Positions 2,557-33,447 of a stretch of DNA of 64,000 nucleotides are shown in pieces (position 1 is the first letter of the stretch; every line of letters starts with the position of its first letter). The DNA is taken from positions 3,658,001 to 3,722,000 of the forward strand of contig NZ_CP137734.1 of assembly GCF_033406955.1 (NCBI RefSeq), in the 5' to 3' direction. The notes below the pieces were generated by a model that ran no database searches, was not told the origin of the DNA, and was given only the letters and a program-made list of their open reading frames with translations. The position numbers and the translations under genes are program-made. The stretch comes from Streptomyces violaceoruber (GTDB lineage: Bacteria; Actinomycetota; Actinomycetes; Streptomycetales; Streptomycetaceae).

Positions 2557-3764
2557 CGTACCGCCGCCCGGGTCGGCAGCAGTCCCCCGTCGGGCGCGCC
2601 CCGCCGGCTCGCCGCCGTCAGCGTGAGCGTCACCGTGAGCGAGGCGAGCGCCATCACGGACATGGCCGTCGCCGGTGAGGTGAACTGGGCCACCGTGCCC
2701 GCCAGGACCGCGGCGAGGCCCTGCATGGTGAGCATCCCGGCGGAGTGCAGCCCGAGGGCGTGCCCGGAGAGTTCGTCGGGGGTCAGGGTGACCAGGCGCT
2801 CCTGCTGCACCAGGCTCGCGCCGAAGCCCACCGACGCCAGGCCGACCAGGACGGCCGTCAACGGCAGCGGCGGACGCAGGAAGAGGACGAGGTACGGGGC
2901 GGCCAGCAGCACCAGGAGCGGGATGCCGAGCCGCGGACGCAGCCGGGCGGGCAGCAGCCGGCCGATCGTCACGTCCCCGGCGAGCATGCCCAGCGCCCCA
3001 CAGGCGAACAGGGTGCCCGCGGCGCGCGGGTCGTAGGAGACGAACAGCGACTCGCAGCCCACGACGAGGCCGTTGGGCACCCACAGGGCCAGGTACACGT
3101 GGCGGCGCGGACGGGCCGACCAGAGCAGGGAGTTGGCCCGCCAGGTGGCCCGGACGGAGGGGCGGCCGGCGACCCGGGGCGGCCGGCGGGTCAGGCGCAG
3201 GGCGAGGGCGGCCGAGGTGCCGTACAGACCGGCCGCGAGCAGCAGGCACAGGCGCGGCGACAGCAGGACCACCAGGACGCCGCCGGTCGCGTAGCCGGCG
3301 ATCTGCATGAGGCCGCTCATCATGTTGAAGAGCGAACGCCCGGTCAGGTAACCGTCCTTGGCGAGGATCTCGGTCAGCAGGCCCCAGCGGACGCCGCCGC
3401 CGAGCGAGGCGATCAGCCCCTCGACGAGCACGATGACGAGCATCGCCCACACCGGCAGACCGGGCAGCGCGAGGGCCGCGGTGGCGGCGGCGAAGGAGAG
3501 CGAGAGGCCCGCCAGCGTCGCGCGGGGCGGCAGCCGGTCGGCGCCGGAGAGGAAGAAGGTGGCGCCCAGCACCTGGGCGAGCGCCGGGCCGAACATGCTG
3601 ACCGCGGACAGCAGCGGCGATTCCGTCGCCCGGAACACCAGGGTGCCGAGCGCGAGCCCGCTCACCGTCTGGGCGGCGATGTTGGCGGAGGAGGAGAGGA
3701 AGAGGGGGCTGAACTCGGGGGTGCGGAAGAGGTCCGCGTACGTCCTGCGGGGTGTGTCCGGCAT
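2547..3764 (-). CDS. MFS transporter (drug-exporter-like)
   Basis: 405 aa with about 12 hydrophobic segments and the N-terminal pattern of actinobacterial exporters (DLFRTPEFSPLFLSSS, then ALGTLVF). An MFS motif-A-like basic loop sits around residue 80. No substrate can be assigned. It is transcribed divergently from an ArsR-like regulator, which suggests the regulator controls it. Start ATG at 3764 has no clear Shine-Dalgarno sequence. The last codons lie in a tandem repeat. Confidence 0.8.
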   Translation of the reverse strand: MPDTPRRTYADLFRTPEFSPLFLSSSANIAAQTVSGLALGTLVFRATESPLLSAVSMFGPALAQVLGATFFLSGADRLPPRATLAGLSLSFAAATAALALPGLPVWAMLVIVLVEGLIASLGGGVRWGLLTEILAKDGYLTGRSLFNMMSGLMQIAGYATGGVLVVLLSPRLCLLLAAGLYGTSAALALRLTRRPPRVAGRPSVRATWRANSLLWSARPRRHVYLALWVPNGLVVGCESLFVSYDPRAAGTLFACGALGMLAGDVTIGRLLPARLRPRLGIPLLVLLAAPYLVLFLRPPLPLTAVLVGLASVGFGASLVQQERLVTLTPDELSGHALGLHSAGMLTMQGLAAVLAGTVAQFTSPATAMSVMALASLTVTLTLTAASRRGAPDGGLLPTRAAVRSA

Positions 3765-30031: not shown

Positions 30032-30087
30032 GAAGATCACGTTAGTCCGCGGATGTCACGGACACGTCACCGGCCGGGCACGGGGCC

Positions 30088-32470
30088 TCACGTCGTACGG
30101 GCGGTCCCCGTGCCCTTCTCCGCGTCCAGGGCGTAGACGCAGCGGTCCTTGCTGCACGCGTACACGATGCCGTCGCGGACGACCGGGGAGCCGGTGATCT
30201 CGCCGCCGGTGGCGAGCTTCCAGCGCAGGCGGCCGTCGTCGGCCTTCAGCGTGTAGAGCAGGTGGTCGGACGAGCCGAAGTGGATGCGGCCCTCGGCGAC
30301 CGCGGGCGCGCCCACGATGTCGCCGCCCGCCTGGAAGCGCCACTTGGGCGTCCCGGTGACCGCGTCCAGGGTGTACAGGCCCTTGCCGCTGCCCACGTGG
30401 ACGTGTCCGGCGGCGACCAGGACCGGGTCGGTCGAGGAGCGGGCCTCGGTCGCGATGCGCCAGCGGTCGCGGCCGTCGGTGGCGTCGAGGGCGTAGACGG
30501 TGCCGAGGTAGTCGGCCAGGTAGACGCCGCCGCCGGTGACGGCCGGGCCCGGCACGAAGGTGGGCGGGGCGAGGAAGACCGCCGGGGCCTCGAAGTGCCA
30601 GCGGACGTGGCCGGAGGCGACCTCCAGGGCGAGGACCCGGGTGCCGGCCGCGACGTACACGTAGCCGTCGGGCGCCTGGGTGAGGCGGACCGGGACGCCG
30701 CCGCAGGAGGCCGCGTCGCCGATCGGGTACGACCATCTCTCGTCGCCGGTACGGGCGTCCAGGGCGCGCAGGCGGGCGTCCTGCCAGACGTAGGCCGTGC
30801 CGTCGTGCAGCGCGGCGCCCGCCTCGGGGGACTCGAAGTCGGTCTGCGCGCCGGTGACCTCCCACAGCTTCTGGCCGGCCGACGCCTCCCAGGCCTGGAC
30901 ACCGCCGCCGCGGGTGGCGGTGAGGACGGTGCCGCGGTCGGCCTGGAGCGAGTACACCCAGGCGTCGGTCTGCACGCGCCAGAGGTCGGCGCCCTCCCTG
31001 GCGTCCAGGGCGAACAGGGTGGGTCCGTCGGAGGCGTGGATACGGCCGTCCGCGACCGCCATCGACCAGGCGACGTCCCGGGTCTTGAAGCGGCGGCGTC
31101 CGGTGGCCACGTCCAGGGCGTGCACCTCGAAGGAGGTGACGTAGACCAGGTCCTCCGCGACCCGCGGCGTGCCCCAGACGTCGTTGGACATACGGAACCG
31201 CCAGGGGCGCCACCCGGCCGGCGAGGCCTCCGGAGGCGCGGGGGCGGGGGCCGGTACGGCGGGGTCGGCGCCGTTGACGCCGGGGCGCGGGCGGGACCAG
31301 GACGCGGCGAGGGCGGACTCCGGCGGGGGCGCGCATGTCGGCGACGCGCGGGCCGGGCCCGATGGGCACCGCCGCGCCGGGCAGCCGGACCGGCCCGCCG
31401 TCGGGGGCGCCGACCGGAGCGGGCACCGCCGGAACGTGCGCGGGCGGCGCCGGTACGACGGGGTCGTGCGCGGGCGGGGGCGGCAGCGGGGGCGCGTGGA
31501 CGGGAGCGCGGGCGCCGGACGGGCCGTGGCCGTGGCCGCGGCCGCCGGCCGTGGTGGCGGGCTTGACGGCGGGGCGGCCGTTGCGGCGCCCCTCGATCAG
31601 GCCCACGGCCCGCTCGGGCAGCCACGCCGACGCCGTACCGCTGTCGTCGGAGCCGGAGCCGAAGAGGTGCGGGGCGAGCTGCGCCTGGAGGTCGGCCGGG
31701 TTGGGGCGGCCGGTGGCCTCCATCTGCATGCAGGACTCGATGAGCGGGCGCAGCTCGTCCGGCAGGCCCTCCAGGTCGGGGCCCTCGCGCAGCAGCATGA
31801 AGACCGTCTCGACCGGGTTGGCGCCGTGGAAGGGCGGGTGTCCGGTGGCGGCGAACACCAGCATCGAGCCGAGCGAGAACACGTCGCTGGCGCCGGTGAC
31901 GCTGCGGGAGTCCTTCGCCTGTTCCGGGGACATGTAGGCGGGGGTGCCGACGGCGACGTTCGTCATGGTCAGACGGGTGTTCGAGACGCCGGACGCGATG
32001 CCGAAGTCGATCACGCGGGGGCCGTCCTCGACGACGAGGACGTTGGAGGGCTTCAGGTCGCGGTGGACCAGGCCCGCGCCGTGGATCGACTGGAGCGCCT
32101 CCGCGACGCCCGCGGCCAGCCAGCGCACCGCCTGGGCCGGCATCGGCCCGCACTCGTTCACTATCTCCTCGAGGGAGGGTGCGGGTACGTAGGCCGTGGC
32201 GAGCCACGGCACGGCGGCGCGCGGGTCGGCGTCGACCACGGCCGCCGTGTAGAAGCCCGAGACCGCGCGGGCCGCCTCCACCTCGCGGGTGAAGCGGACG
32301 CGGAACAGCTGGTCCTCCGCCAGTTCCGTGCGCACCGTCTTGATCGCCACGCGCCGCCCGGACGCCGAGCGCGCGAGATAGACCAGCCCCATGCCGCCGG
32401 CGCCGAGCCGCCCCAGCACCTCGAACGGCCCGATCCGCCGCGGATCGTGCTGCGTCAGCTGATCCACCAC
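30088..32470 (-). pseudogene. afsK: afsK, membrane Ser/Thr kinase with PQQ-repeat propeller; kinase and propeller halves out of frame
   Basis: GTG 32470 (GGGGAGG upstream) begins MVDQLTQHDP; kinase signatures GRLGAGGMG, the ATP-binding Lys in VAIKTVR (about residue 44), HRDLKPSN and DFG follow, then a His/Gly/Pro-rich linker to about residue 380. The PQQ-type beta-propeller (MSNDVWGTPRVAEDLVYVTS, repeated VYALDA blades) continues to 30088, but in another frame. The switch lies near 31324-31330 on the plus strand. The span is 2,383 nt; S. coelicolor AfsK (799 aa, from memory) needs 2,400, so a 17-nt loss fits. As written, translation from the kinase frame ends at 30056 with a nonsense tail. 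AfsK autophosphorylates at the membrane and phosphorylates AfsR. Confidence 0.9.
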
Positions 32471-32688: not shown

Positions 32689-33447
32689 TCAGCGTCGCAG
32701 CAGCGCGAACGACGCCCCCTGGTCGTCCGAGACCACGGCCACCCGCCCGTACGACGTCCCGAAGGGCGGCACCCGCACCCGCCCGCCGAGCCGGACCACC
32801 GCCGCGAGCCCGGCGTCCATGTCCTCGACCAGGAAGTGGACCAGGAAGTGCGGCGGCATCTCGGCGGGGAAGACGTCGGAGACCCGGGCCCGGCCGAAGT
32901 CGGGGGACGCGTCCGGGCCGAAGAGCGCCTCGTGGAACAGGTCGCCGTAGAAGGCGTTGGCGGCCTCCGTGTCCCGGGTGTACAGCTCGGCCCAGGCGAA
33001 CGTGCCGGGCTCGCGCCGGCGCCCGAAGCCGCTACGGCGGTCCGGCTGCCAGAGCCCGAAGACCGCACCGTCGGGGTCGGCGGCGAGGGCGGTGGTGCCC
33101 AGGTCGCCGAGCGGGTGCGGCGGAGTGACGACCTGACCGCCGCCCGCCCTGATCCGCGCGGTGAGGGCGGCGGCGTCCAAGGTGTGGAAGTACACGGACC
33201 ACACGGTGGGCATCCGGCCGTCCGTCTTGCGGACCAGCGCGGCGACCGGCTCCCCGTCCAGGCACGCCCGTACGGACTGCCCCGCCGCCCGGTAGGGACT
33301 CTCCTCGGCCTCCCCCTCTTCCTCCTGGAAGGTCCAGCCGAACAGCTCGCCGTAGAAACGCCTGCCCGCCTCCACGTCGGAGAGCTGGGCGTCCACCCAG
33401 CAGGGGACGCCCTCCCGCCTCTTCTCGAATGCCCCGTTTTCGGCCAT
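32689..33447 (-). CDS. Two-domain VOC-family protein
   Basis: 252 aa. Two tandem VOC modules: residues about 12-125 (VPCWVDAQLSDVEAGRRFYG, ADPDGAVFGLWQ) and about 140-252 (FAWAELYTRDTEAANAFYGD, SDDQGASFALLR). The layout is that of fused glyoxalase-like proteins found throughout Streptomyces; the substrate is unknown. ATG 33447 has no ribosome site, but TACTTT ends 6 nt upstream, suggesting a leaderless mRNA. Divergent from the TetR gene (122 bases between starts), so the TetR protein is a candidate regulator. Confidence 0.85.
   Translation of the reverse strand: MAENGAFEKRREGVPCWVDAQLSDVEAGRRFYGELFGWTFQEEEGEAEESPYRAAGQSVRACLDGEPVAALVRKTDGRMPTVWSVYFHTLDAAALTARIRAGGGQVVTPPHPLGDLGTTALAADPDGAVFGLWQPDRRSGFGRRREPGTFAWAELYTRDTEAANAFYGDLFHEALFGPDASPDFGRARVSDVFPAEMPPHFLVHFLVEDMDAGLAAVVRLGGRVRVPPFGTSYGRVAVVSDDQGASFALLRR

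Follow-up and report, generated by a model that had tools for sequence, protein, structure and literature searches.

The afsK gene of the Streptomyces violaceoruber strain studied here most probably carries a recent, strain-specific loss-of-frame mutation, which would have arisen by slippage or recombination between two copies of CGCGCC in the linker between the kinase and the propeller. The stretch of DNA that was analysed, hereafter the window, comprises 64,000 nucleotides of contig NZ_CP137734.1. The AfsR protein encoded in it is identical at 992 of 993 residues to the S. coelicolor protein of PDB 8k60, which indicates that the strain belongs to the S. coelicolor group.

The gene order kbpA-afsK-(one orf)-afsS/afsR is present in the window, as in the afs region of S. 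coelicolor (Table 1). Translation of the minus strand from 32470 to 31318 yields an intact Hanks kinase, with the HRD, DFG and glycine-loop motifs all present, followed by a Pro/Ala-rich linker that ends in VADMRAPAG. The propeller frame, offset by one base from the kinase frame, picks up again as PPESALAASWSRPRPG and ends at 30088. The Pkinase and PQQ_2 matches therefore lie in separate frames, in contrast to the single frame for kinase and propeller that is characteristic of AfsK. These data agree with a preceding sequence-only reading of the region, in which the gene was recognized as afsK and described as split by a frameshift.

Table 1. Features of the afsK locus, in window coordinates.
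Feature	Position	Strand	Remarks
afsK as now read	30056..32470	-	GTG 32470, Shine-Dalgarno GGAGGTG; kinase and linker, then off-frame to stop 30056-30058; predicted product of 804 aa
Ser/Thr kinase domain, Pfam Pkinase, residues 16-261	31688..32425	-	E 2.1e-38; intact, HRD and DFG motifs
Deletion scar, sole remaining CGCGCC	31328..31333	-	Relatives: CGCGCC-GCCGCCGTCGC-CGCGCC; 17 bp absent in window
C5 run, candidate extra-base site of the sequence-only reading	31325..31329	-	In-frame relatives carry the same run; not the lesion
Propeller reading frame	30088..31596	-	Open from just below stop 31597-31599 to normal afsK stop 30088-30090
PQQ beta-propeller domain	30106..31212	-	PQQ_2 E 1.4e-44; now off-frame relative to kinase; from residue 56 on, AlphaFold2 pLDDT of about 90 for the most part
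kbpA-like gene, 252 aa, glyoxalase fold	32689..33447	-	Upstream of afsK, intact
afsS, 63 aa	29224..29415	+	Intact
afsR, 993 aa	26029..29010	+	Intact; 1 residue differs from S. coelicolor AfsR in PDB

Alignment with close relatives reveals that exactly 17 bp are absent from the window. The gap can be placed at 31333/31334 or, with the same result, at any point as far as 31327/31328, and it lies in the kinase-propeller linker, where the break had been located from the reading frames. The relatives read ATG CGCGCCGCCGCCGTCGC CGCGCC where the window reads ATG CGCGCC. With more of the flanks included, most close relatives carry GTCGCCGACATG CGCGCCGCCGCCGTCGC CGCGCC(C/A)CCGCC, a few of them differing at single bases, and the window has GTCGCCGACATG CGCGCCCCCGCC at the same site. 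The closest relative (G142), which is 97.5% identical in afsK at the DNA level and has a genome in a single 8.4-Mb contig, possesses an intact single frame. A 17-nt deletion had previously been guessed from length alone, and the arithmetic is consistent with the alignment: 2,383 + 17 = 2,400 nt, that is, 799 codons plus stop, the 799 aa being the length that we assume for S. coelicolor AfsK.

The lost segment consists of one CGCGCC copy and the 11 bp as far as the second copy, the two forming a direct repeat of 6 bp. Of the roughly 240 17-bp deletions that are possible in the relatives' linkers, no more than 1-2 have a flanking identity of at least 6 bp. Slippage between direct repeats classically removes one copy together with the spacer, and this is the pattern found in the window, with the relatives intact. 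Replication slippage or recombination between the CGCGCC copies, 17 bp apart, would thus have removed the segment. The deletion is a fresh instance of a familiar event and involves no new mechanism; slippage deletions at direct repeats in bacteria give rise to strain-specific pseudogenes with the same loss of repeat copy and spacer, the same destruction of the frame and the same intact relatives, and differ in nothing but the affected gene. The other lesion that had been put forward, the insertion of a C into the C5 run, restores the frame arithmetically only and agrees with no relative in the alignment; it was rejected because the relatives carry the run together with the 17 bp. A hairpin-driven deletion was also considered and discarded, as the relative-like 60-nt sequence folds worse than its shuffles.

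The age of the deletion was approached through changes on the window branch, which were polarized using five outgroups. The propeller half and the kinase half each show 5 synonymous and 0 non-synonymous changes; the counts are small, and the exclusive presence of synonymous changes in both halves suggests that the propeller was still constrained until recently and that the deletion is recent.

The deletion is likely to be genuinely present in the DNA of the strain. The alternative that carries most weight is an artefact of assembly or template, in which a polymerase jump between the repeats or a consensus error in the G+C-rich linker would have produced the gap and the afsK of the strain would be intact; we regard this as unlikely, though not negligible. 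The deletion may conceivably also be a variant that arose in culture. Breaks of artefact-like appearance do occur in afsK of other genomes. The G220 gene (L163) shows many 1-2 bp losses with respect to its nearest relative that resemble sequencing noise or error in a G+C-rich stretch, and in another locus (L168; G301:C159, about 3400-3460) the propeller and the end of the linker are joined to unrelated sequence where the kinase is expected, a break in the same linker that may represent an assembly join or a rearrangement. On the other hand, consensus errors typically are 1-bp homopolymer changes, whereas here exactly 17 bp are missing between perfect repeats. Moreover, the genome forms one contig of 8,629,698 bp with an estimated completeness of 100%, and the strand around the lost segment folds no better than shuffled sequences.

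The quality of the assembly was further assessed by a protein-frame comparison of genes over 192 kb between the window genome and G142, which was preferred to a raw list of non-3n indels with respect to G142 that is noisy through alignment wobble. In this comparison 118 of the 133 G142 genes were intact, 13 were unmatched and two were flagged. The flagged cases correspond to a repeat-rich stretch and to an ORF seemingly over-extended upstream of a DtxR-type regulator, and neither looks genuinely broken. The afsK gene itself is absent from the list, probably as a result of ORF picking, its break being shown by direct alignment. No other convincingly broken gene was found within the 192 kb compared with G142, which argues against a low-quality assembly and suggests that the sequence here is not generally indel-ridden. 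A repeat-rich GGTGCG stretch at about 480-650 of the window contains several indels with respect to G142. If the deletion is indeed in the DNA of the strain, its antibiotic and branching phenotypes should not be taken to represent a wild-type AfsK-AfsR cascade, and it offers a ready-made test of the role of the propeller half; the interest of the finding lies mainly with users of this strain.

With the frame broken by the deletion, translation from GTG 32470 would produce the kinase with the larger part of the linker and then continue into off-frame residues. No stop interrupts the kinase frame before 30056-30058, and the final 423 residues of the predicted product are off-frame, with 31% Arg, 17% Pro and a net charge of +116. 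Such a tail may lead to degradation or to nucleic-acid binding, and the product departs from the soluble kinase lacking its extracytoplasmic sensor that had been proposed earlier. The sensor itself finds no backing either. No transmembrane segment was detected in intact AfsK orthologues, whose best 19-residue Kyte-Doolittle mean is 1.32 and falls inside the kinase domain; an extracytoplasmic location of the propeller is therefore unsupported.

In vitro, residues 1-311 of AfsK suffice to phosphorylate AfsR; AfsL and PkaG phosphorylate AfsR too, and AfsR is probably merely modulated by AfsK phosphorylation (PMC10936776). S-adenosylmethionine (SAM) has been reported to bind the C-terminal half of AfsK, increasing autophosphorylation (review, PMC6988585), and KbpA inhibits the kinase (PMC6988585). 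AfsK is non-essential and DivIVA is also a substrate (PMC13432765). Because SAM reportedly acts via the C-terminal half, loss of the propeller should remove SAM responsiveness, and kinase activity would possibly be kept, provided that the aberrant tail brings no degradation. Altered AfsR phosphorylation in the window strain is thus possible. A quantitative shift of antibiotic regulation and hyphal branching is anticipated rather than their abolition, since AfsL and PkaG can still phosphorylate AfsR, and the phenotype of the broken afsK is expected to be mild or conditional.

A more specific proposal is that the natural allele encodes a constitutively active, SAM-insensitive AfsK, with or without the Arg-rich tail, that has been kept in the strain by virtue of its effect on AfsR signalling or on DivIVA-dependent branching. 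It would then be the natural counterpart of the laboratory construct AfsK-deltaC (residues 1-311; PMC10936776), which likewise is a kinase half without propeller and phosphorylates AfsR in vitro. The predicted product differs from the construct by about 70 additional native linker residues and by the 423 off-frame ones, and we consider retention of this kind improbable.

Still less probable is a functional split gene, in which an active truncated kinase would be accompanied by a propeller translated apart, from ATG 31191, as had been suggested, or from another internal start. The propeller frame is open and has accumulated zero non-synonymous changes on the window branch, but a recent deletion accounts equally well for the absence of decay. 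AlphaFold2 models the propeller frame with a mean pLDDT of 81.9, and gives very low confidence to the linker preceding the propeller, as if disordered. The first predicted propeller strand comprises residues 59-62 and lies just before Met 63, which corresponds to ATG 31191, so that a protein initiated there would start past this strand. Neither is there a Shine-Dalgarno sequence at this ATG, and the kinase frame has no stop near it that would allow stop-start coupling. A separately made, working propeller is unlikely because the candidate start is devoid of a Shine-Dalgarno sequence.

The distribution of intact and broken genes also favours a mutation private to the window strain. A single-frame afsK is seen in 118 of the 124 loci having both kinase and propeller (some species are counted twice). 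The five broken loci besides the window are of differing kinds and places: one C added to a run of C (L019/L171), an 8-bp difference (L048), 1 bp within the kinase (L070), the many small losses of L163 and a +1 change close to the linker end (L164). None of them shares the deletion of the window. The exact junction sequence was not found in 392 other genomes of the genus, in an exact-match search that is weak for diverged species, and a literature search returned no paper reporting an afsK frameshift. The intact relatives speak against a conserved programmed frameshift. Full-length AfsK made from the two-frame gene by programmed or leaky +1 frameshifting is accordingly the least credible reading: both frames are open over a long overlap in which any +1 slip would rejoin the halves, but the architecture is not conserved, there is no recognized slippery site at the junction and the other afsK breaks differ from this one.

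The linker in which the deletion occurred is long, low-complexity, G+C-rich, predicted disordered and indel-prone, and its length is variable among intact relatives. In the linker of the sister species G142 (L119), two frameshifts, of 5 bp and of 1 bp, lie about 50 nt from each other and compensate so that the frame is kept, and the linker therefore tolerates altered residues. In comparison with AfsK of S. coelicolor A3(2) (SCO4423), the window gene shares the kinase, the Pro/Ala-rich linker and the PQQ propeller as well as the neighbours kbpA, afsS and afsR; it differs by the missing 17 bp and the split frames, where we infer the intactness of SCO4423 from the relatives and its assumed length.

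Another kinase-plus-PQQ gene is located elsewhere in the genome, outside the window (G000:C1:4752788-4754749; L003), as a single 732-aa open frame, and might replace AfsK in part. When the window is compared with G142, the kinase domain of AfsK shows 100% identity, AfsR about 90% and AfsS 61%; the downstream members of the cascade diverge much faster than the kinase.
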